Shown: one piece after another, positions 34,750 to 53,935 of the stretch
Numbering within the stretch: the stretch's first letter is position 1
Layout: each line of letters opens with the position of its first letter
Origin: Alphaproteobacteria bacterium SO-S41
GTDB taxonomy: Bacteria > Pseudomonadota > Alphaproteobacteria > Micropepsales > Micropepsaceae
Direction: 5' to 3'
DNA length: 64,000 bases
Assembly: GCA_019670725.1 (NCBI GenBank)
Contig: AP024629.1
Location: 4,278,001-4,342,000, forward strand
Made by a program: the position numbers and the translations under genes
Notes under the pieces: model-generated
Told to the model about the DNA's origin: nothing
The model's input: only the letters and a program-made list of their open reading frames with translations
Database searches by the model: none

Positions 34750-34822
34750 GACATCAAGGCCGGTTGCGTCGCAGCGCGCTGTCCCGCACTCTAGCGTGAA
34801 TCACGGACGGACCCGCCCGAGC

Positions 34823-35536
34823 ATGCCTACCATCGCCCTCGTCGACGACGACAAGAACATCCTGACCTCGGTCTCCATGGCTTTGGAGCAGGAGGGCTAT
34901 CACGTCCGGACCTATACGGACGGGGCCGCGGCCCTCGCCGCCTTCGCCTCGACGCCGCCCGATCTCGCCGTGCTCGACATCAAGATGCCGCGCATGGACG
35001 GGATGGAGGTGCTGCGGCGGCTGCGCCAGAAGAGCGAATTGCCGGTGATCTTCCTCACCTCCAAGGACGAGGAGATCGACGAGCTGATGGCGCTGAACGC
35101 GGGCGCCGACGACTATATCAAGAAGCCGTTCTCGCAGCGCCTGCTGCTGGAGCGCGTGCGCGCTGTGCTGCGCCGCGCCGAAGCGCGCGCCGGCGGCGGG
35201 GCGAAGGACGGCACGCCCGCCGATCCCGCGCAGGCCGCCTTCAGCCGCGGCAAGCTGATGATGGACCCGCAGCGCCACGCGACGAGCTGGATGGGCAAGC
35301 AGGTGACGCTGACCGTCACGGAGTTCCTGATCCTGCAGGCGCTGGCCCAGCGCCCCGGTTTCGTGAAGAGCCGCGACCACCTGATGGACGCGGCCTATGA
35401 CGACCAGGTCTATGTCGACGACCGCACCATCGACAGCCACATCAAGCGGCTGCGCAAGAAGTTCAAGGTGGTGGACGACGACTTCGATTCGATCGAGACG
35501 CTCTACGGCGTCGGCTATCGCTTCAAGGAAGCCTGA
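34823..35536 (+). CDS. chvI: ChvI-type response regulator
   Basis: 237 aa, OmpR/PhoB class. The receiver has Asp8-Asp9-Asp10, phospho-acceptor Asp52 ([13 protein letters not shown]), a Thr/Ser switch ([11 protein letters not shown]) and Lys in YIKKPF. The winged-helix output ends [10 protein letters not shown]. In Rhizobium and Agrobacterium, ChvI with ChvG controls envelope and acid-stress genes and is essential or nearly so. The start is ATG 34823; the longer frame at 34796 lacks the family N-terminus. Assignment rests on similarity plus the chvG-hprK-PTS neighbours. Confidence 0.9.
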
Positions 35537-35548
35537 GCTGCGTCCCGC

Positions 35549-35953
35549 CTAGAGCACGAACGAGAAGGGCAGGAGCTCGCTCATGGGGCGTTCGATCGCG
35601 CGGCCTTCCCAGCGGAACATGACATGCGCGCCGTAGCCGTGCTCGGCGATCACCTGCCGGCAAGCGCCGCAGGGCGGGGCGTCGCGGTCAACGCCGGTCG
35701 CATCGCGCGCCGAAACCGCGATACGCTTCAACCGCGCCGTGGGTCCGAGCTTCGCCATGCCCGCCGCAATGGCGTTGCGTTCGGCGCAGATGCCCGACGG
35801 GAAGGCGCCGTTTTCGACATTGGCGCCGGTAACGATGTGGCCGCCTTCGAACTCCGCGGCCGCCCCGACCTGAAACTTCGAGTAGGGCGCATAAGCCCCG
35901 TCGCGCGCGGCGTCGGCCAGCGCCATCAGGCGATCAATCGGGTCGTTGCTCAT
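35549..35953 (-). CDS. cdd: Cytidine deaminase
   Basis: 134 aa. Zinc-site motifs GICAERNAIAAG (Cys plus catalytic Glu) and PPCGACRQVIAEH (two Cys) are intact, and the substrate loop SKFQVGAAAE is present. It deaminates cytidine and deoxycytidine to uridine forms in pyrimidine salvage. It lies on the opposite strand between chvI and chvG, an unexpected place, and is divergent from chvG with only 17 bases between start codons. Confidence 0.93.
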   Translation of the reverse strand: MSNDPIDRLMALADAARDGAYAPYSKFQVGAAAEFEGGHIVTGANVENGAFPSGICAERNAIAAGMAKLGPTARLKRIAVSARDATGVDRDAPPCGACRQVIAEHGYGAHVMFRWEGRAIERPMSELLPFSFVL

Positions 35954-35970
35954 CGTCCCACGATAGGCCG

Positions 35971-37581
35971 TTGAGCGCGCGCCGCAACCAGAGCCCTGCC
36001 CCGCCCCCCGCCGCGCATCGCCGGCGACGCGGCCTGACGCGCCTCATCATCGCGCTCAACCTCATCGCCGTGCTGGTGCTGATCGGCGGCTCGTTCTGGC
36101 TGAACCTCCGCCGCGTCGGGATGATCGACGAGCGGATCCTCAGCCTCAAGACGCAGGGCGCGATCATCGCGGCGGCGTTGGCGGAGAGTGCGACGGACGG
36201 GCCGGAGGCGACGGGGATCGACGACCAGCTCGCCGTGCCGCTGCTGCGCCGTCTCGTCGCGCAGACCAATGCGCGAGTCCGGCTGTTCGACCGCAAGGGC
36301 CAGCTCCAGCTCGACAGCCGCGTCATCGTGCCTTCGAACGAGGTGGTGACCAACCGCCTGCCTGCGCCCGATAGCTGGCTGGCGGCGGAATGGGTGACCG
36401 AGGTGTATGAATGGCTCGCGCGCTGGGCGCCGGGTCAGGACTATCCGCCCTATCAGGAATTGCAGGGGCTCGACGGCACGTTCTATGGCGAGGTCGCGGA
36501 AGCCCTGCAGGCGACGCCATCGAGCGCGGTGCGGGTGAATTCGACGGGCGACCTCATCCTCTCCGTCGCCGTGCCGGTGCAGCGCTACCAGCTCGTGCTC
36601 GGCGTGCTGCATCTAACCAATGAAGGCGGCGATATCGGCGCGATCCTGAGGCAGGAGCGGCTGGCGATCCTGCAGCTCTCGCTGATCGCCATCGCCGTGA
36701 TGATCGCGACCTCGGTGCTGATGGCGCGCAATATCGCGCAGCCCATCCGCGCCCTCGCCGACGCCGCCGACGATGCCCGCCAGCGCGTGAAGGGCCGCAC
36801 CGCCATTCCCGATTTCAGCGCGCGGCGCGACGAGATCGGCGATCTCTCCGGCTCGCTGCTGGCGATGACCGATGCGCTCTATGACCGGATCGATGCGATC
36901 GAGCAGTTCGCCGCCGATGTCGCGCACGAGATCAAGAACCCGCTGACCTCGCTCAAAAGCGCGGTCGAGACCATGCGGCGCGCGACGCCCGAGCAACGCG
37001 AGCGGCTGATGGCGGTGATCCAGGACGACGTAAACCGGGTTAACCGCCTCGTCACCGACATTTCCGACGCCTCGCGCCTCGATGCCGAGCTGGCGCGGGA
37101 GAATGCCGGGGCGGTCGATCTCCTCAGGCTCGCCAACGATGTCGCGGCGCTCTGCCAGAAGGAGACGGGGCCGCGCGTCACCGTCAGCGCCGATCTCGGC
37201 GTGCAGCGCGCCGGCCTCACCGTCACCGGGCTCGACGGGCCGCTGGGACAGGTGCTGCGCAATCTCATCGACAACGCACTCTCCTTCTCGCCGCCGGAGG
37301 GCACGGTGCGGGTCGGCCTCGCGCGCGAGCACCGCTTCGCCCTCATGACCGTCGCCGATGACGGACCGGGCATTCCGCCGGAGCACCTCACCGACGTCTT
37401 CAAGCGCTTCTACACCTCGCGTCCCGATGAGCATTTCGGACAGAATTCGGGTCTGGGGCTTTCGATCTCCAAGCAGATCGTCGATGTTCACGGCGGTACG
37501 ATCGAAGCCGCCAACCAGCCGGGCGATGGACCCGACGGCCATGGCGGCGCGATCTTCACCATCCGACTGCCGCTGCCGTGA
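35971..37581 (+). CDS. chvG: ChvG-type sensor histidine kinase
   Basis: 536 aa. Transmembrane helix 1 at about 22-43, a periplasmic sensor loop of about 190 residues, helix 2 at about 232-250, HAMP, then HisKA with phospho-acceptor His319 (ADVAHEIKNPLTSL). The ATPase boxes are NLIDNALSFSPPEG, DDGPGIP and SGLGLSIS. The start is TTG 35971; no ATG is near, and stops or the cdd promoter lie just upstream. It senses envelope conditions and phosphorylates ChvI. The stop is immediately followed by hprK. Confidence 0.9.
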   Translation: MSARRNQSPAPPPAAHRRRRGLTRLIIALNLIAVLVLIGGSFWLNLRRVGMIDERILSLKTQGAIIAAALAESATDGPEATGIDDQLAVPLLRRLVAQTNARVRLFDRKGQLQLDSRVIVPSNEVVTNRLPAPDSWLAAEWVTEVYEWLARWAPGQDYPPYQELQGLDGTFYGEVAEALQATPSSAVRVNSTGDLILSVAVPVQRYQLVLGVLHLTNEGGDIGAILRQERLAILQLSLIAIAVMIATSVLMARNIAQPIRALADAADDARQRVKGRTAIPDFSARRDEIGDLSGSLLAMTDALYDRIDAIEQFAADVAHEIKNPLTSLKSAVETMRRATPEQRERLMAVIQDDVNRVNRLVTDISDASRLDAELARENAGAVDLLRLANDVAALCQKETGPRVTVSADLGVQRAGLTVTGLDGPLGQVLRNLIDNALSFSPPEGTVRVGLAREHRFALMTVADDGPGIPPEHLTDVFKRFYTSRPDEHFGQNSGLGLSISKQIVDVHGGTIEAANQPGDGPDGHGGAIFTIRLPLP

Positions 37582-37592
37582 TAGAAAGACCT

Positions 37593-38069
37593 ATGACCGC
37601 ACCCGACGCCCAGGCCCGCATCCACGCCTCGCTCGTCGCGCTCGAACGCGAGGATGGCGGGCGCGGCGGCGTGCTGCTTTTCGGTGCGCCGGGCGCCGGC
37701 AAGTCGGACGTGGCCATCCGGCTCATCGACAATGGCGGCGTGCTGGTCGCGGACGACCAGGTCGATCTCGTCTTCGGCGAGGGCGGCCTCTGGGGTTCGG
37801 CCCCCGCCACGATCGCGGGGCTGATCGAGGCGCGCGGCATCGGCCTCATCCGCCTGCCCTTCGAGCCGCGCGTACGGGTCGCGCTGGCGGTGACGCTGAA
37901 AGCCGGCGGCGCGACCGAGCGCATGCCCAAGCGCGAATGGTACCAGCCGCCCGACGCCTTCCGCGCCCGGGGCGGCGCGCTGCGCATTCCCCATGTCGTG
38001 CTGGATGCCCGCGAGGCCTCGACGCCCGCGAAGATCGCGCTTGCGGTCTACGGCAAGATCGAAGGCTGA
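37593..38069 (+). CDS. hprK: HPr kinase/phosphorylase, short alphaproteobacterial form
   Basis: 158 aa. Walker A GAPGAGKSD (31-39), then VLVADDQVDLVF and the C-terminal helix region. It lacks the N-terminal domain of Firmicutes HprK, as is normal in alphaproteobacteria. It phosphorylates and dephosphorylates a serine of HPr (Ser48 in this window). ATG 37593 is preferred over GTG 37578, which overlaps the chvG stop. It belongs to the chvG-hprK-EIIA-HPr regulatory cluster linking the phosphotransfer state to ChvGI. Confidence 0.9.
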   Translation: MTAPDAQARIHASLVALEREDGGRGGVLLFGAPGAGKSDVAIRLIDNGGVLVADDQVDLVFGEGGLWGSAPATIAGLIEARGIGLIRLPFEPRVRVALAVTLKAGGATERMPKREWYQPPDAFRARGGALRIPHVVLDAREASTPAKIALAVYGKIEG

Positions 38070-38149
38070 GACTGCATCCCATGCCCTTGAGGCGAGGCCT
38101 GCGCCGTGATGTGGTGCGCCACCGAAACCAACACTCCAGGGAAACGTCC

Positions 38150-38431
38150 ATGGCTGCCTATGCTCTCTTCATCCGTAACTCCACCTCGGACGCCGAGGGG
38201 ATGAAAACCTACGGCGCGCTCGCCGCCAAGGCGCGCGGAACGTTCAAGCCGCTCGCCGTCTATGGCCCCATCGAGACGCTGGAAGGCGAGACATCGGAAG
38301 GCGTCGTGCTGTTGGAGTTCCCTGACATGGACGCGGCGAAGGCCTGGTACAACAGCCCCGCCTATCAGGAGGCGCTGCCGCACCGGAAGCGCAGCGCAGA
38401 CTACCGCGTCCTGTTCTTCCAGGGCCTCTGA
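38150..38431 (+). CDS. DUF1330-like small protein
   Basis: 93 aa, ferredoxin-like alpha/beta fold. AYALFIRNSTSDAEGMKTYGALAA and EFPDMDAAKAWYNSPAYQEALPHRKR match the DUF1330 family. No catalytic residue is known. A GGGAAA ribosome site precedes the ATG. It sits between hprK and the EIIA gene and is likely an accessory insertion, since this family is not part of the PTS. A large hairpin follows. Confidence 0.8.
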   Translation: MAAYALFIRNSTSDAEGMKTYGALAAKARGTFKPLAVYGPIETLEGETSEGVVLLEFPDMDAAKAWYNSPAYQEALPHRKRSADYRVLFFQGL

Positions 38432-44511: not shown

Positions 44512-45915
44512 ATGTCATCCCACGACTACCACGTCGCCGATATCAAGCTGGCCGCCTTCGGCCGCAAGGAAATCGACCTCGCCGAAACCGAGATGCCGGG
44601 CCTGATGGCGACCCGCGAGGAATTCGGCAAGTCGCAGCCGCTGAAGGGCGCGCGCATCGCCGGCTCGCTGCACATGACGATCCAGACCGCCGTCCTCATC
44701 GAGACGCTGAAGGCGCTCGGCGCCGACGTGCGCTGGGTCTCGTGCAACATCTATTCGACCCAGGACCACGCCGCCGCCGCGATCGCCGAAGGCGGCACGC
44801 CCGTCTACGCCTATAAGGGCGAGACGCTGACCGAGTACTGGGACTACACCGCCAAGCTGTTCGACTGGCACGGCGGCGGCATGCCCAACATGATCCTGGA
44901 CGACGGCGGCGACGCCACCATGTTCGTCCATCTCGGCCTCCGCGCCGAGCAGGGCGACACGGCGTTCCTCGACACGCCCCATTCGGAAGAAGAAGAGATC
45001 TTCTTCGCGCTGCTGAAGAAGACGCTGAAGGCGAAGCCCCAAGGCTGGTTCGCCCAGCTCGCCGCCTCGATCAAGGGCGTCAGCGAAGAGACCACTACCG
45101 GCGTCAACCGCCTCTACCAGCTCGCGGCGCAGAACAAGCTGCTCTTCCCCGCGATCAACGTGAACGACAGCGTCACCAAGTCGAAGTTCGACAACCTCTA
45201 TGGCTGCCGCGAGTCGCTGGTCGACGCGATCCGCCGCGGCACCGACGTGATGATGTCGGGCAAGACGGCGTTCGTCGCCGGCTTCGGCGATGTGGGCAAG
45301 GGCTCGGCGGCGTCGCTGCGCCAGGCCGGCTGCCGCGTGCTCGTCTCGGAAGTCGATCCGATCTGCGCGCTGCAGGCGGCGATGGAAGGCTATGAGGTCG
45401 TGACGACCGAAGACGCGCTGACCCGCGCCGACATCTTCGTCACCGCGACCGGCAACAAGGACATCATCACGATCGAACACATGCGCGGCATGAAGGATCG
45501 GGCGATCGTCTGCAATATCGGCCACTTCGACAACGAGATCGATGTCGCGGGCCTCAAGAACTACAAGTGGAACAACATCAAGCCGCAGGTCGACGAGATT
45601 GAACTCGCGTCGGGCCGCCGCATCATCCTGCTGTCGGAAGGCCGTCTGGTGAATCTCGGCAATGCGATGGGCCACCCGTCCTTCGTCATGTCGGCCTCGT
45701 TCACCAACCAGACGATCGCGCAGATCGAGCTGTGGACCAACCCCGGCAAGTACGCCAAGCAGGTCTACACGCTGCCCAAGCACCTCGACGAGAAGGTCGC
45801 GCGCCTGCACCTCGAAAAGATCGGCGTGAAGCTGACGAAGCTTTCGACTTCGCAGGCCGACTATATCGGCGTGAAGACCGAAGGCCCGTTCAAGTCCGAT
45901 CACTACCGCTACTAG
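44512..45915 (+). CDS. ahcY: Adenosylhomocysteinase
   Basis: 467 aa, full length. It hydrolyses S-adenosylhomocysteine to adenosine and homocysteine in the methyl cycle. NAD-binding [14 protein letters not shown], the adenosine-site [13 protein letters not shown], and C-terminal [11 protein letters not shown] and SDHYRY are present. A conserved neighbour of the ChvGI/PTS cluster. A possible operator lies upstream and a terminator follows. Confidence 0.97.
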
Positions 45916-46100: not shown

Positions 46101-46278
46101 ATGAAGTGAGGAATGGAAATTAAAGCCCCGCTCCATCCCCTCCGCCCGGCGCCTGCCCGACAATCGTTAACCAAATAGCTGGGGACTCTTTCGCGGCGAG
46201 TCTTGCGCGCTTATCGTGACGGGGGGACGATTCGCGCGGCGGCGGGCGACGCGGATCGCCGAGGGCAACACAGTACCA

Positions 46279-48750
46279 ATGACGAATCCGGCGACGCGAT
46301 GGCTGCGGCGGCGCAGGGGGATTCCCCTGGCGGCCAGCCTCTATGCGTCCACCTTCCTGCAGAGCGCGGTCGCTCAGGAGACGCGCAGTCCCTTCGATCC
46401 CGGGTCCTATGTCGGACCGCTGGCGGCGATCGGGCTGATCGCGCTCGCCGTCGCCGGCGTCCTCTTCGCGATCGGCGCGATGCAGCGCTCGCGGGCCCGC
46501 GAGCAGCGCTTGAGCGGCGAACTCGCGGCGGCGCGACGCAGCGCGGCGGAACGGAGCGCTTTGCTCCTCTCGACCGACACCCCGCTTTATCTCTATCCGA
46601 CCGGCGCGGCGCGCCCGCGCATCTTCGGGCCCGACCAGGGCCGGCTGGAGCGCGTGCTGCGCGGCCCCGACGGGCTCGCGCTCGCCGAGGCGATCAAGCG
46701 GCTGCGGGCAAGCGGCGAGCCCTTCACCATGCAGGTCAACGACGCGCAGAGCGGCCTCCTCAAGGCGCGCGGCCGGGCGGCGGGGCGCGAGACCGCGATC
46801 TTCCTGGAAAGCGCCGACGACAGCGGCGAGCGCCACGCGCCGGCGCCGGAAGTCTCGACCGACGATCTGCGCCTGCGCGGTCTCTTCGACGCCATCCCCC
46901 TGCCGCTGGCGGCGCGCGCCAAGGACGGCAAACTGATCTACGCCAACCCCGCCTATGCCGAGGCCGCCGGCGCGGCGAGCCCGGCCGCCGCCATCGCGGC
47001 GCAGGCGAAGCTGTTCTCCGACGAACCCGCGCTCGCGGAATCCGCGATGTCCGCGGGCAGCCCCGTCACCGAACGGCGCTTCGCGGTCATCGGCGGCCAG
47101 CGCCGTGCGCTGGAAGTGACCGCCGCACCGGCGGGCGACACGGTGGCGATCGCCGTCGCCGACGAGAGCGGCGCGGCCGAAGCCCGCGACAAGCTGCAGC
47201 GCCATATCGGCGCCTATGAGGAGACGCTCAACCGCCTGAAGACCGCGGTCGCGGTGTTCGGCGCGGATCAGAAGCTCTCGTTCTACAACAAGGCCTATGT
47301 CGATCTCTGGCGGCTCGATCCCACCTGGCTCGCGATGCGGCCGTCGGAAGGCGAGATTCTGGAGCGGCTGCGCGAGGCGCGGCTGGTGCCGGAGGAAAAG
47401 AGCTTCGCGGCCTTCAAACGGGCGCGCGCCGAACTCTATGCCTCGATGACCGCGCCGCAGGAGGAGATCTGGCACCTGCCCGACGGTACGACGCTGCGCA
47501 TCGCGGGCCAGCCCCATCCGTTCGGCGGCCTTCTCTATCTCTACGAGGACATGACCGAGCAGCTCAGCCTCGAGCGCCGCTATAACGACCTTTTCAACGT
47601 CCAGCGCTCGACCCTCGACCACCTGCACGAAGGCGTCGCCTTCTTCGGTACGGACGGACGGCTGAAGCTGTGGAACGTTGCCTTCGCCGATCTCTGGGGC
47701 CTCGAGCCGCACCAGCTGGAAAACGAGCCGCATTTCGAGAAGGTGGCTTTGCTCTGCGCCGCGCTCGGCGGCGACGGCGCGGACTGGGACAAGGTACGCG
47801 GCCAGGTGACGGGCGCGGCCGAGCGCACCGAGATCAGCGGCGACATGGAACGCAGCGACGACGTCACGCTGCGCTATGCCGCCGTCCCGATGCCCGACGG
47901 CGCGACGCTGATGAGCTTCGTCGACATGACCGACGCGGTGCGCGCCGAACAGAGCCTCTTGGAAAAGAACGAAGCGCTCGTCACTGCGGCGCGGCTGAAG
48001 ACCGACTTCATCGGCCACGTCTCCTACCAGCTCATCGTGCCGCTGACCTCGATCATCGGCTTCACCGAAGCCGTGCAGGCCGGCATTGCCGGGCCGCTGA
48101 ACGCCAAGCAGGACGAATATCTCGGCAGCGTGCTCGCCGCCTCCGCCGAGCTGAAGACCCAGATCGACAACATGGTCGATCTCGCGGCGATCGATGCGGG
48201 GGAACTCAAGCTCGATCTCCATCCGATCGAGCCGGTGGAGTTCCTGACAAACCTCAAATCGATGGTTCAGGAACGCTGCAACAAGGCCGGGTTGGAGCTC
48301 GTGATGATCGCGCCCGACGATCTCGGCACGCTGATCGCCGACCCCGCACGCATGAAGCAGGTGATGTTCAACCTGCTGACCAACGCCATCACCTACACGC
48401 CGTCAGGCGAAAAGATCGAGTTCGGCGCGGCGGCGGAAGGCGCGGGCCTGCGCTTCTGGGTGCGCGACACCGGCCCCGGTTTCGAACCCGAACAGCAGGC
48501 GCGCGCCTTCGAGCGTTTCGAGAGCAGCCGGGTCGGCGAGGCGCCGCGCGGGCCGGGCCTCGGCCTCGCGCTGGTGCGCTCGATCGTGCAGCTCCATGGC
48601 GGCTGGGTGTCGCTCAGGTCCCGCAAGGGCGAAGGCACGGAGGTGACGTGCCATCTGCCGCGCTCGGGGGAGTCCCCGGCCCTGCCGGGCTTTGAGGGCT
48701 TCGGCGATACCGTGTTGACGCCGCCGGCCATCGACAGCTTCGAACCTTGA
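46279..48750 (+). CDS. divL: DivL-like PAS sensor with Tyr at the phospho-acceptor position
   Basis: 823 aa from ATG 46279 (GAGGGC about 12 bases before; a GTG at 46216 would add 21 residues). Membrane helix at about 46-66. Several PAS-like regions run from about 200 to 560. HisKA region: GHVSYQLIVPLTSI, where Tyr583 stands where kinases have His. ATP boxes NLLTNAITYTP, DTGPGF and GPGLGLALV are intact. DivL of Caulobacter has this same Tyr substitution and modulates the CckA-CtrA phosphorelay with DivK. Orthology is supported by the gene order ahcY-divL with tsaE further on. Kinase activity is doubtful. Confidence 0.85.
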   Translation: MTNPATRWLRRRRGIPLAASLYASTFLQSAVAQETRSPFDPGSYVGPLAAIGLIALAVAGVLFAIGAMQRSRAREQRLSGELAAARRSAAERSALLLSTDTPLYLYPTGAARPRIFGPDQGRLERVLRGPDGLALAEAIKRLRASGEPFTMQVNDAQSGLLKARGRAAGRETAIFLESADDSGERHAPAPEVSTDDLRLRGLFDAIPLPLAARAKDGKLIYANPAYAEAAGAASPAAAIAAQAKLFSDEPALAESAMSAGSPVTERRFAVIGGQRRALEVTAAPAGDTVAIAVADESGAAEARDKLQRHIGAYEETLNRLKTAVAVFGADQKLSFYNKAYVDLWRLDPTWLAMRPSEGEILERLREARLVPEEKSFAAFKRARAELYASMTAPQEEIWHLPDGTTLRIAGQPHPFGGLLYLYEDMTEQLSLERRYNDLFNVQRSTLDHLHEGVAFFGTDGRLKLWNVAFADLWGLEPHQLENEPHFEKVALLCAALGGDGADWDKVRGQVTGAAERTEISGDMERSDDVTLRYAAVPMPDGATLMSFVDMTDAVRAEQSLLEKNEALVTAARLKTDFIGHVSYQLIVPLTSIIGFTEAVQAGIAGPLNAKQDEYLGSVLAASAELKTQIDNMVDLAAIDAGELKLDLHPIEPVEFLTNLKSMVQERCNKAGLELVMIAPDDLGTLIADPARMKQVMFNLLTNAITYTPSGEKIEFGAAAEGAGLRFWVRDTGPGFEPEQQARAFERFESSRVGEAPRGPGLGLALVRSIVQLHGGWVSLRSRKGEGTEVTCHLPRSGESPALPGFEGFGDTVLTPPAIDSFEP

Positions 48751-48762
48751 GCTGCCGCTAGG

Positions 48763-49236
<474 letters not shown>

Positions 49237-49260
49237 TCATCCATATTGCGTAGAGTATGC

Positions 49261-49923
49261 ATGACCCCGCCAACCGTCTGCGTTGTTGACGACGATCCAT
49301 CGATGCGCGACGCGCTCGACAGTCTTCTGCGGTCCATCGGCCTCAATGTCGAACTGTTCCGCTCGCCCGGCGATTTCCTGGCGCGTCATCGTCCCGCAGC
49401 GCCCGAATGCCTCGTCCTCGATGTCCGCATGCCCGGGATGAGCGGGCTCGATTTCCAGCGCCGCCTGACCGAAGACGGCAACGACATCCCGATCGTCTTC
49501 ATCTCAGGCCACGCCGACGTACCCATCGCGGTGCAGGCGATGAAAGCGGGCGCGATCGAGTTCCTGACCAAGCCGTTCCGCGAACAGGACCTGCTCGACG
49601 CCATCCAGAACGCGCTCGACCGCGACCGCCAACGCCGCGCCTCGCTGGCGCACGACGCCGTCATCCACGCCGCCTATAACCGCCTGACGGCGCGCGAGCA
49701 GGAGGTCATGGGCCTCGTCGTCGCGGGCCAGATGAACAAGCAGATCGCGGGGCGCCTCGCGCTCAGCGAGGTCACCGTGAAGATGCATCGCGGCCGCGTC
49801 ATGCGGAAGATGAGCGCCATGTCGATCGCCGATCTGGTGCGCATGGCCGACCGCCTGGCGCTGTCGCTGCCGACGCCGCTGCCCGTCGCGGCCCCGCTCA
49901 GGGCGACGAGCGCGGGATCGTAA
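49261..49923 (+). CDS. FixJ/LuxR-type response regulator
   Basis: 220 aa. Receiver: Asp-Asp-Asp near 11 (VVDDDPS), phospho-acceptor LVLDVRMPGMSG, Thr/Ser switch FISGHADV and Lys in LTKPFREQD. LuxR helix-turn-helix: LTAREQEVMGLVVAGQMNKQIA, SEVTVKMHRGRVMRKM. The start ATG 49261 is chosen over 49171. Its end overlaps the 3' end of the opposite-strand kinase by 26 bases; probably its cognate partner. Confidence 0.9.
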   Translation: MTPPTVCVVDDDPSMRDALDSLLRSIGLNVELFRSPGDFLARHRPAAPECLVLDVRMPGMSGLDFQRRLTEDGNDIPIVFISGHADVPIAVQAMKAGAIEFLTKPFREQDLLDAIQNALDRDRQRRASLAHDAVIHAAYNRLTAREQEVMGLVVAGQMNKQIAGRLALSEVTVKMHRGRVMRKMSAMSIADLVRMADRLALSLPTPLPVAAPLRATSAGS

Positions 49924-51292
49924 ACGACATCCGTGTACCGCGCGGCGTCAGCCGGGTCGCGGCGATGCGCCCGCCATGCGCCTGCACGATGGTCTGGCAG
50001 ATCGCGAGGCCAAGCCCCATGCCGCTCGGCTTCGTCGTATAGAACGCCTCGAACAGGCGCGCCGCGCTTTCCGTGCTGAGCCCTTCGCCGCGATCCTCGA
50101 CCGCGAATTCGACGGCGTCCGCGCCCTCGCCCTGCACGGCGATGCGGATGGGCCGCGCGCCCTGCGGCTGGCCGTGGCTCGCCTCGATCGCGTTGAGCAC
50201 GAGGTTGATGACGACCTGCTGGATCTGCACGCGGTCGGCGGCGACGGCCGGCAGGTCCGGCGCATAGTCGACGGTGAGCTGCGCGCCCTGGGCCAGCGCC
50301 TCGCTCTGCATGATCGTCCTGATATCCTCGACGAGGCCGCGCGGCTCGACGGCGGTACGCACCGTCTTGCCGCGCTGCAGGAGATCGCGCATCGAGATGA
50401 CGATCTCGCTGGCGCGCGAGGCGTCCTTGATGATGCGCTCGTTCAGGATCTGCGCCTCGTGCACCACCGGTTCGGCGCGGGCGAGCCAGTTGATGCTGGC
50501 ATTGCCGCTGGTGATGATCGCCGACAGCGGCTGCTTGATCTCGTGCGCGATCGAGGCGGCGAGCGCGCTGATGGTGAGCGAGCGGTTGATATAGGCGAGC
50601 TCCAGCCGCGCGGCGGCGAGTTCGCTCTCGATGCGCGCGCGATCCTCCGACGCGGCAAGCTCCGCCTCCGCCCGGGCGCGCGAGGCGAGATGCATCTCGC
50701 GCCGCGTCGCGACATTGTAGAGCATGGCGATCAGCGTCATCTGCAGCAGCGCGGCGGCGATCAGCACGTCGAATTCGGGCATGCCGAAATGGAGGTCGCG
50801 ATAGATCGCGTAAGGCGCCAGCGCGACGAGCGACAGGCAGAAGATGACCGAGGAGATCACCAGCGCGATATGCGGGCGGAAGACGCCGGCATTCTGCACA
50901 TACATCACGATCAGCCAGGGCAGCCAAAGCAGGACGCGGATCGTCGCGCCGCCTTCCCAGAAATTGTTCAGCGTGCAGCCAAGGATGAAGAGCAGCGTGA
51001 TCGTCTGGGCGATGAGCCAGGTGATGAAGTGGCGTTTCACCCCGACCACCGCGATCGTCGCCGTCGCGGTCAGCAGCGCGGCGATGAGCGCGAGATTGAG
51101 CCAGATCTCCATCGAGCTCGGCGCATCGGGCCGCGCCGAAACGAACAGATTGTAGAGCGTGGCCGCGATCAGCATCACGGTCACGAAGCCCCGGCTGAAA
51201 CGCGTGGTGCCGGCCGGCGCGCGGCGCCACTCGTCGATCTTGTGGAGATCCAGCGTAAGCCTGGACAGCCCCTCCACCTCTACGTTCGTCAT
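49898..51292 (-). CDS. Membrane sensor histidine kinase, probable partner of the FixJ regulator
   Basis: 464 aa from ATG 51292 (an ATG at 51367 is possible). Six hydrophobic helices (residues about 35-210) form a membrane sensor. A coiled coil (RARAEAELAASEDRARIESELAA) leads to HisKA (SIAHEIKQPLSAI) and the ATPase (NLVLNAIEASHGQ, EDRGEGLS, GMGLGLAICQTI). The sensor is unlike known MASE or PutP modules, so its signal is unknown. Convergent with and overlapping the FixJ regulator gene. Confidence 0.85.
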   Translation of the reverse strand: MTNVEVEGLSRLTLDLHKIDEWRRAPAGTTRFSRGFVTVMLIAATLYNLFVSARPDAPSSMEIWLNLALIAALLTATATIAVVGVKRHFITWLIAQTITLLFILGCTLNNFWEGGATIRVLLWLPWLIVMYVQNAGVFRPHIALVISSVIFCLSLVALAPYAIYRDLHFGMPEFDVLIAAALLQMTLIAMLYNVATRREMHLASRARAEAELAASEDRARIESELAAARLELAYINRSLTISALAASIAHEIKQPLSAIITSGNASINWLARAEPVVHEAQILNERIIKDASRASEIVISMRDLLQRGKTVRTAVEPRGLVEDIRTIMQSEALAQGAQLTVDYAPDLPAVAADRVQIQQVVINLVLNAIEASHGQPQGARPIRIAVQGEGADAVEFAVEDRGEGLSTESAARLFEAFYTTKPSGMGLGLAICQTIVQAHGGRIAATRLTPRGTRMSFTIPRSSP

Positions 51293-51527
51293 TCGCCCCG
51301 TATGCCCGTTCTCGTCTGGACCCGCAGCCATCGGCGCAATGACCGCGATTGTCGATCCGGTCAGCATGTTAGCGTTAACGGCACCGCATAAGCGCCCTAT
51401 ACAAAGGTATGCCCGGTCCAGCCGAGAGTTGACTAGGCACGGACGAGGGATCGCCGCATCGTGACGGCGGAATGATCGGGGTTATTCCTTGTACTGACGA
51501 ACGGCCTGTCCCCCCGGTCTGATTCAG

Positions 51528-52135: not shown

Positions 52136-53350
52136 TCAGCTCATGAAGCTCTTCATGGGCACCGCGAGATCGGCGAGGCGGGCGGGATCGACCGTCTTGT
52201 TCTGCGCGATCATCATGCGGCCGATCATGTATTCCGGCGCCGCATTGATCGCATCGACCGCCGCCACCGCGCCGTTCCGCAGATAGAACGCCGCGAACTT
52301 GCGCGTCGCGGGATCGCCGCGCAGCACGACCTCGTCCTCGGGCTGCGAGATCCCGGCGATCTGCAGCTTCAGCTCATACTGGTCCGACCAGAACCACGGC
52401 ACGTCGTCATAGGGCTTCGGCTTGCCGACGATCGCGAGCGCCGCGGTCTTCGCCTGCTCGATCGCGTTGTGCACGGATTCGAGGCGCAGGCGGCGGCCGA
52501 GCAGTTTGCTCGGCAGGTTGGCGCAGTCGCCGGCGGCATAGACATTGGGGTCGCTGGTGCGCGCGAACTCGTCGACCACAATGCCGTTCTCGCAGACGAG
52601 ACCGGCGCTCTGGGCGAGCGCCTGTTCGGGCAGGATGCCGATGCCGGCGATGACGAGATCGGCGACGAGATCATCGCCCGCGTTCTTGACGACGATCTGG
52701 CCGCCCTCGCCCGCCTCGAAACCGTGCACGCCGGTCGAGGTGAGGATGGTGACGCCGGCCGCGTGGTGCACCTCCTGGAAGAAGTCCGACATCAGCTTCG
52801 AGGTCACGCGCTGGAGGCAGCGCTCCATCGCCTCGACCACGGTGACCTTCAGCCCGCGCTTGGCGGCGACCGCGGCGGTTTCCAGCCCGATATAGCCGCC
52901 GCCGACGATGACGAGATGCTTGCCCGGTTCGAAATGCGGGCGGATCGCGTTCACGTCGGCGATGCCGCGCAGATAGAAGATCCCCGGCAGCTCGGCGCCC
53001 GGCACGGTCAGCTTGCGCACCCGGCTGCCGGTCGCGAAGACCAGCGTCTCGTAGGGAAAGCTGTCGCCATTGGCGAGCGTCACCGTCCTGGGGCCAAGAT
53101 CGACGGCCTCGACCCGGCCACCGAGCACCAGGGTCGTGTCGGCCTGGGCGTAGAATTCCGGCGGCTTGATGTAGAGCCGCTCCTCCTCCAGCTCGCCGGA
53201 GAGGAATTTCTTCGAAAGCGGCGGGCGCTGATAGGGCGGATAGGCCTCGTCGCCGATCACGGTAATGGGCTGGGCATAGCCTTCCGCGCGCAGGCTCGCC
53301 ACGAGCTGCGAGGCCGCCTGGCCGGCGCCAATCACCACGGTTCCCGACAT
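52136..53350 (-). CDS. Ferredoxin/rubredoxin reductase-like FAD oxidoreductase
   Basis: 404 aa. FAD motif VVIGAGQAASQLV (1-20), PPYQRPPLSKKFL, NAD motif VIVGGGYIGLETA near 150-165, and ATG-SRV and GDCANLPS of the second FAD motif. A C-terminal reductase extension follows. It transfers electrons from NAD(P)H to a ferredoxin; the 2Fe-2S ferredoxin 3 kb upstream is a plausible partner (inference). GAGGGT precedes the ATG. Divergent from tsaE. Confidence 0.9.
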   Translation of the reverse strand: MSGTVVIGAGQAASQLVASLRAEGYAQPITVIGDEAYPPYQRPPLSKKFLSGELEEERLYIKPPEFYAQADTTLVLGGRVEAVDLGPRTVTLANGDSFPYETLVFATGSRVRKLTVPGAELPGIFYLRGIADVNAIRPHFEPGKHLVIVGGGYIGLETAAVAAKRGLKVTVVEAMERCLQRVTSKLMSDFFQEVHHAAGVTILTSTGVHGFEAGEGGQIVVKNAGDDLVADLVIAGIGILPEQALAQSAGLVCENGIVVDEFARTSDPNVYAAGDCANLPSKLLGRRLRLESVHNAIEQAKTAALAIVGKPKPYDDVPWFWSDQYELKLQIAGISQPEDEVVLRGDPATRKFAAFYLRNGAVAAVDAINAAPEYMIGRMMIAQNKTVDPARLADLAVPMKSFMS

Positions 53351-53455
53351 GCTCAGACCCTCACCAAAAAGCGCGCGAACCTGCCGGATCGGAGCCGCGG
53401 AATCAACGTCCGCGACGGCGTTGCCCCCTCTCGCCCCATCGGGCACAAGACGCAA

Positions 53456-53935
53456 ATGCAGGCGGCGATTCACAACGGGGCAGCGGAGCTGAAGCTGCCG
53501 GGGCTCGACGCCGTGGCGCGGCTGGGCGCGGCGATCGCGGCGCGGCTGCAACCCGGCGATGCCGTGGCGCTGCGGGGCGACCTGGGCGCGGGCAAGACGA
53601 CGCTGGCCCGGGCGATCCTGACAGCCCTCGGCCACGAAGGCGAAGTGCCCTCGCCCACTTTCACGCTGGTCCAGGGCTACGACCTGCCCGGCCTCACCGT
53701 TGCGCATATGGACCTCTATCGCCTGAAGCAGCCCGAAGAGATCGTGGAACTCGGCTTCGACGATGCGCTGGCGCAGGGCGCAGCGCTGATCGAGTGGCCG
53801 GAGATGGCGGAAGACTACATGCCCGACGAACGGCTGGACGTGATCCTGACGGCGGAACCGGAACGGCGGGCCACGCTGGCCGGCCATGGACGCTGGGCAG
53901 GGCTCGCCCCCCTCATCGCCAACGAGGCGGCATGA
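53456..53935 (+). CDS. tsaE: tRNA threonylcarbamoyladenosine biosynthesis ATPase TsaE
   Basis: 159 aa. P-loop GDLGAGKTTLAR (42-53), PSPTFTLVQGY, MDLYRL and IEWPEMAEDYMP are the family motifs. It acts with TsaB and TsaD on t6A tRNA modification. It starts a tightly coupled operon: its stop overlaps the next ATG (ATGA). Confidence 0.95.
   Translation: MQAAIHNGAAELKLPGLDAVARLGAAIAARLQPGDAVALRGDLGAGKTTLARAILTALGHEGEVPSPTFTLVQGYDLPGLTVAHMDLYRLKQPEEIVELGFDDALAQGAALIEWPEMAEDYMPDERLDVILTAEPERRATLAGHGRWAGLAPLIANEAA

Follow-up and report, generated by a model that had tools for sequence, protein, structure and literature searches.

The window, a 64,000-nucleotide stretch of DNA from Alphaproteobacteria bacterium SO-S41, lies in a complete 4.44 Mb chromosome. 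The host is a member of the Micropepsaceae, the same family as Rhizomicrobium, and belongs to a different genus. Between ahcY and tsaE, the window contains a stop-free open reading frame for a protein with the domains of a DivL sensor. An alternative GTG start at 46216 is likewise open in the divL frame. The features of the locus are as follows:

44512..45915, forward strand: ahcY (adenosylhomocysteinase), the usual upstream neighbour of divL (Pfam, neighbourhood comparison)
46279..48750, forward strand: divL ortholog, an open reading frame of 823 amino acids with its ATG at 46279 (Pfam, solved-structure match, tree)
46399..46572, forward strand: long N-terminal helix, residues 41-98, predicted membrane anchor and linker (AlphaFold helix, pLDDT about 55-71)
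46585..46812, forward strand: degenerate alpha/beta (PAS-like) domain, residues 103-178 (AlphaFold secondary structure)
46858..47163, forward strand: PAS domain, residues 194-295 (Pfam PAS_8, AlphaFold model)
47167..47550, forward strand: PAS domain, residues 297-424 (Pfam PAS_7, AlphaFold model)
47554..47925, forward strand: PAS domain, residues 426-549 (Pfam PAS_4, AlphaFold model)
47929..48195, forward strand: DHp (HisKA-type) helical hairpin, residues 551-639 (Pfam HisKA 574-641, AlphaFold model)
48025..48027, forward strand: Tyr583, the phospho-acceptor position, equivalent to Caulobacter Tyr550 (translation, alignment, residue counts)
48034..48039, forward strand: Ile586-Val587 in place of Caulobacter DivL Arg553-Thr554 (alignment, comparison of 5/5 genus genomes, residue counts)
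48220..48660, forward strand: CA (HATPase_c) domain, residues 648-794, with N702, DTGPG, FERF, and GPGLGL boxes (Pfam, residue counts, AlphaFold model)
53507..53935, forward strand: tsaE, the usual downstream neighbour of divL (Pfam TsaE in the open reading frame 52469-53932, neighbourhood comparison)

The window protein has the DivL layout of a membrane anchor, PAS repeats, a DHp domain, and a CA domain. The domains are identified by Pfam (HisKA at 35.9 bits against a cut-off of 26.9, HATPase_c at 89.8 bits) and by an AlphaFold model, and the anchor is predicted by hydrophobicity alone, from a hydrophobic stretch at about residues 45-68. The model was built from 30 aligned sequences and has a mean pLDDT of 79.5 and a pTM of 0.39, with an uncertain domain arrangement. 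From the N-terminus, a long helix is followed in the model by four PAS-like units of alpha/beta type, then by the DHp hairpin and the CA domain. Residues 103-178 have no Pfam match.

Active HisKA histidine kinases carry a phospho-acceptor His, an acidic residue at H+1, and Thr or Asn at H+4. In the window DivL these positions are occupied by Tyr583, Gln584, and Val587; the tyrosine lies within KTDFIGHVSYQLIVPLTSIIGFTE, in the motif YQLIVPL. The N, G1, F, and G2 boxes of the CA domain are intact (N702, D730/G732, F747, G758/G760). The first-pass annotation had read both the Tyr at the His position and the intact ATPase boxes correctly, including the residue number. Because the phospho-acceptor His is absent, self-phosphorylation would not be expected, and we infer that the protein has neither kinase nor phosphatase activity and acts by protein contact.

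Sequence, tree, gene neighbourhood, and circuit partners agree that the protein is a true DivL ortholog, and together they uphold the DivL-like identity first proposed for it. Among all solved proteins, Caulobacter DivL 4q20 is its closest match in sequence (E 5.1e-47, 163.6 bits), 65 bits ahead of the second match, a histidine kinase (E 2.1e-27). In a fold search, 4q20 appears at ranks 6 and 7 by E-value, after longer multi-domain proteins, with 36-37 % identity and a target TM of 0.73-0.78. No NCBIfam model listed for the protein is above its cut-off, and no DivL model is among those listed.

The first-pass annotation had suggested a phylogeny as a check, and a quick tree of 143 kinase cores, in which many inner branches are weakly supported, sets the protein outside the ordinary histidine kinases. 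From the 43 HisKA matches in the genome, 31 kinase loci (L001-L030, L076) were offered to this tree; 27 of them gave rows of sufficient length, including two pairs of identical sequences. These 27 kinases of the same genome all fall on one side of a branch with an SH-aLRT of 99, and placement among them is rejected because the window protein stands apart. It groups with the DivLs of its family, and the DivLs of Caulobacter, Maricaulis, and Hirschia lie nearby. In the trees, the window genus has as its nearest relative a DivL (L091, genome G282) that carries Asp in place of the Tyr (QISDKLRTPL).

The gene order ahcY-divL-tsaE-amgK-murU-addB-addA is the usual alphaproteobacterial divL neighbourhood. 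Across 83 divL loci (the best 80 of 575 named loci and 3 from the family), tsaE lies near divL in at least 67, amgK in at least 66, murU in at least 55, and ahcY in at least 51, all lower bounds set by contig ends and 6 kb flanks. Thus, the adjacency to ahcY pointed out in the first-pass annotation is real, but it is the normal place of divL rather than a peculiarity. Genes for a ferredoxin, a two-component pair, a receiver protein, and a ferredoxin reductase lie between divL and tsaE in the window; ferredoxin occurs at 19/83 and ferredoxin reductase at 18/83 divL loci, mainly those nearest in sequence. The two-component pair (49171-51367) consists of a LuxR-type response regulator and a histidine kinase on opposite strands, whose 3' ends overlap by about 25 bases. 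Elsewhere in the window (34796-38431), a histidine kinase (L027) follows an OmpR-type response regulator (L119), and this pair may resemble ChvI/ChvG. A promoter and terminator scan returned 0 sites, and a CtrA-box pattern had 0 matches over the window.

CckA, ChpT, CtrA, and DivK, the partners of DivL, are all encoded in the window genome; the first-pass annotation had asked for the first and the last two, and ChpT was found besides. DivK is 80 % identical to a Caulobacter DivK query, has DivK 1m5t as its best solved match (E 7.5e-60), and is encoded beside a gene for a PleD-like protein. The best solved matches of CckA are 5idj (E 7e-70) and 5idm (1e-40), and NCBIfam CckA models rank best for it, at 664 and 524 bits, under the cut-off of 1000. 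ChpT is above the Pfam cut-off and has the NCBIfam ChpT model as its best match, under cut-off. CtrA is above its curated cut-off (425 versus 350 bits), and its gene lies about 4.6 kb from chpT and beside what is presumably a fliI-like gene. DivJ-like kinases are present as best model matches, all under cut-off, so that no kinase is assigned as DivJ or PleC. DivK is found in 4/5 genus genomes and 80/96 family genomes; the genus genome without a DivK match (G193) is 88 % complete.

Caulobacter crescentus DivL (4q20; PMC4211667) shares with the window DivL a Tyr in place of the His, multiple PAS domains, and a DHp-CA module with all boxes, and both organisms have CckA-ChpT-CtrA and DivK. According to the available passages of PMC4211667, the Caulobacter protein has no autokinase activity, and Y550H alone does not rescue it. 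The same passages report that R553A, T557N, Y562A, and H579E weaken DivK~P binding 8-15-fold, that Y550H has no such effect, that R553A is harmful to Caulobacter cells, and that Arg553 is modelled as touching a backbone oxygen of DivK. The 4q20 alignment pairs Tyr550 with Tyr583, Arg553 with Ile586, and Thr554 with Val587. The window DivL therefore differs from Caulobacter DivL by Ile-Val for Arg553-Thr554 and Gln for Glu551, as well as by Phe for Tyr562 and Tyr for His579, both of which are common in other DivLs. At H+3, where Caulobacter-type DivK~P docking has Arg553, all 5 genus genomes have Ile586.

This change from LRTPL to LIVPL was correctly read in the first-pass annotation, where it received only a brief mention. 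It is what makes the protein truly unusual, since the counterpart of Arg553 is lost through it. In the class set (95 DivL loci from 94 genomes, G184 having two DivLs), the Arg position holds 84 Arg, 8 Lys, 1 His, 1 Asn, and 1 Ile, the last from the window. The family set (84 loci covering the H-box, from 84 of 96 genomes) has 79 Arg and 5 Ile, all five from the window genus, and the named set (best 80 of 575 loci) has 80/80 Arg, so that Ile occurs in the window genus only (1/95, 5/84, and 0/80). Class genomes were left out where the best match fell below about 200 bits or the H-box was not covered; seven of these were PAS-only or fragments (G078, G144, G006, G047, G172, G046, G050), and others, such as G044, G035, G114, G053, G064, and G069, have a DivK match without a clear DivL. 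G099, which has Thr at the Tyr position, keeps Arg, and is not among the DivK-match genomes, lies outside the count.

All five genus genomes carry Y583, I586-V587, and the motif YQLIVPL, with synonymous codon differences at the Tyr (TAC/TAT), Leu585 (CTC/CTG), and Ser582. This rejects a sequencing error, which the first-pass annotation had named as a threat to its reading of the Tyr. Of six domains compared within the genus, DHp shows the lowest dN (0.084, against 0.088 for the third PAS domain and 0.232 for the N-terminus), which rejects relaxed decay of the H-box. Given the shared motif, the synonymous differences, and the low dN, the Ile-Val change looks kept by selection rather than decayed. 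DivL is already known as a dead-kinase regulator of the bacterial cell cycle; what is new here is the replacement of Arg553 by a LIVPL motif fixed in 5/5 genus genomes, in the domain with the lowest dN. No description of an Ile-Val DivL variant was found in the available passages of literature on DivL R553, DivL orthologs and evolution, pseudokinases, and Sphingomonas/CtrA (PMC4211667, PMC8116508, PMC9430884, PMC11500502), and for DivL R553 only PMC4211667 was found.

Loss of the Arg can be set beside the presence of DivK, scored as a match at 1e-40. The comparison covers the 94 class genomes whose H-box is readable. Of the 72 with DivK, 71 keep the Arg, the window genome being the sole exception, and of the 22 without a DivK match, 10 have lost it; the 11 non-Arg genomes are these 10 and the window genome. 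Fisher's test gives p 7e-7 in a plain table that ignores relatedness, and the losses are clustered: the tree has 5 changes and yields 3 independent pairs with support, for which a sign test is not significant. A DivL outside this count (L397, genome G127) has a DHp-CA module so degenerate that no H-box is readable, yet its genome has a DivK match. It is a second kind of exception, and the window genome is the sole one among readable H-boxes only.

Tyr occupies the phospho-acceptor position in 76/95 class, 70/84 family, and 74/80 named loci (best 80 of 575), so that its occurrence in the window DivL is no matter of chance. The 19/95 class loci without it have 4 His, 3 Phe, 2 Val, 2 Thr, 2 Gly, and 1 each of Cys, Ser, Lys, Glu, Gln, and Leu. 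When Tyr versus not-Tyr is mapped on a quick tree made from 134 DivLs with the H-box columns left out, 10 changes are needed. The exception named in the available passages of PMC4211667 is Ala in Magnetospirillum, and the DivL Tyr is less fixed than that text suggests. DivK is absent in 11/19 non-Tyr versus 11/75 Tyr genomes, without tree-aware significance. Four class loci (L058, L244, L245, L275), nested among Tyr DivLs and all from genomes with DivK, have His back at this position, three of them within the full kinase-like motif VSHELRTPLN. They may be natural Y550H cases, perhaps active again.

Within the family, 13/84 loci have Phe for Tyr in the sequence HASFLFRDPL (one HASFLFRNPL): L102, L104, L111, L114, L153, L154, L160, L167, L173, L176, L180, L193, and L203. 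They form a clade of a large genus that includes Rhizomicrobium, and DivK is present in 12/13 of their genomes. These Phe-DivLs share with the window DivL its family, a changed H-box, and a DivK that is mostly present, but they keep Arg and lose Tyr, whereas the window genus keeps Tyr and loses Arg. In six genomes examined from the genus that includes Rhizomicrobium, a second DivL-like gene (L204-L209, 555-610 amino acids) ends after the last PAS domain, without the kinase module, beside a full DivL; matches of this kind are listed for about 20 family genomes. The short DivL of Rhodobacterales resembles the window DivL in that its DivK-reading module is altered or lost; as described in the available passages of PMC9430884, Rhodobacterales have lost DivK and the whole pseudo-kinase module, whereas the window genome keeps both.

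Taken together, these observations are best explained by a dead-kinase DivL of a Micropepsaceae bacterium with a remodelled DivK~P docking face, a reading that is probably correct. By analogy with Caulobacter, the PAS domains of the window DivL would bind and activate CckA, activated CckA would phosphorylate CtrA through ChpT, and DivK~P would dock on the DivL DHp domain and shut this activation off. In the window genus, the docking face would have been remodelled by the change of Arg553-Thr554 to Ile-Val, fixed and apparently under purifying selection, with DivK and its known contact residues remaining unchanged. The published DivK contact residues are identical in 30/30 DivKs examined (of 80 in the family), and the seven genus-specific DivK differences all lie elsewhere in the DivK sequence. 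Compensating changes at the published contacts are rejected on this basis, as is loss of DivK as the cause of the Arg loss, since DivK is found in 4/5 genus genomes. The most likely consequence would be a DivK~P link that is weaker than in Caulobacter or runs over other contacts, a step with about an even chance of being right.

It is quite possible that this is an ordinary DivL that senses DivK~P as Caulobacter does, the Ile-Val change being neutral or locally compensated. The DivK contacts are unchanged, and the remaining protein and its partners are ordinary. In addition, T557N breaks DivK~P binding in Caulobacter (available passages of PMC4211667), yet Asn is the commonest natural residue at 557 (71/95 class and 72/84 family loci). 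Because of this common Asn, and because Phe replaces Tyr562 in most DivLs counted, single Caulobacter mutations do not predict the behaviour of orthologs, and loss of the Arg may therefore be harmless here. The small number of independent events behind the association between Arg and DivK (3 supported pairs) also counts against a remodelled docking face. Against an ordinary DivL stands the near-invariance of the Arg where DivK is kept (71/72 in the class; 79/84 in the family, the other 5 from the window genus). An ordinary DivL is further opposed by the absence of Lys or Arg between K574 and K610, where basic residues are found only around His580.

A DivL uncoupled from DivK~P, activating CckA constitutively or in response to another signal, is an unlikely explanation. 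DivK would then be kept for partners of the PleD, PleC, or DivJ type, and DivJ-like kinases are indeed among the model matches. The key Arg is lost, and elsewhere in the class every genome that has lost it lacks a DivK match. However, the DHp and CA domains of the window DivL are intact and conserved, and in lineages that lack DivK the DivLs reportedly lose both (available passages of PMC4211667 and PMC9430884). A kinase active on the Tyr or on some other residue, or else an ordinary histidine kinase whose Tyr is a sequencing error, is suggested by the intact ATPase boxes and is highly improbable given the Tyr in 5/5 genus genomes and as the common state among DivLs, the Gln at H+1, and the lack of autokinase activity or Y550H rescue in Caulobacter (available passages of PMC4211667).

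For the remodelled dead-kinase DivL, a further step is proposed tentatively: the genus-wide natural R553I/T554V DivL may have cut or rebuilt the DivK~P-to-DivL link, with DivK, CckA, ChpT, and CtrA retained. Input from elsewhere or a new docking surface would then amount to a rewired cell-cycle switch in Micropepsales. The reading of response regulator phosphorylation by a dead kinase is known mainly from one species. The lineage with a swapped Arg and its partner kept, along with its Tyr-swapped relatives, provides natural mutants for testing which contacts matter. These lineages also show that the reading module of DivL can change along more than one route with hardly any change in DivK.
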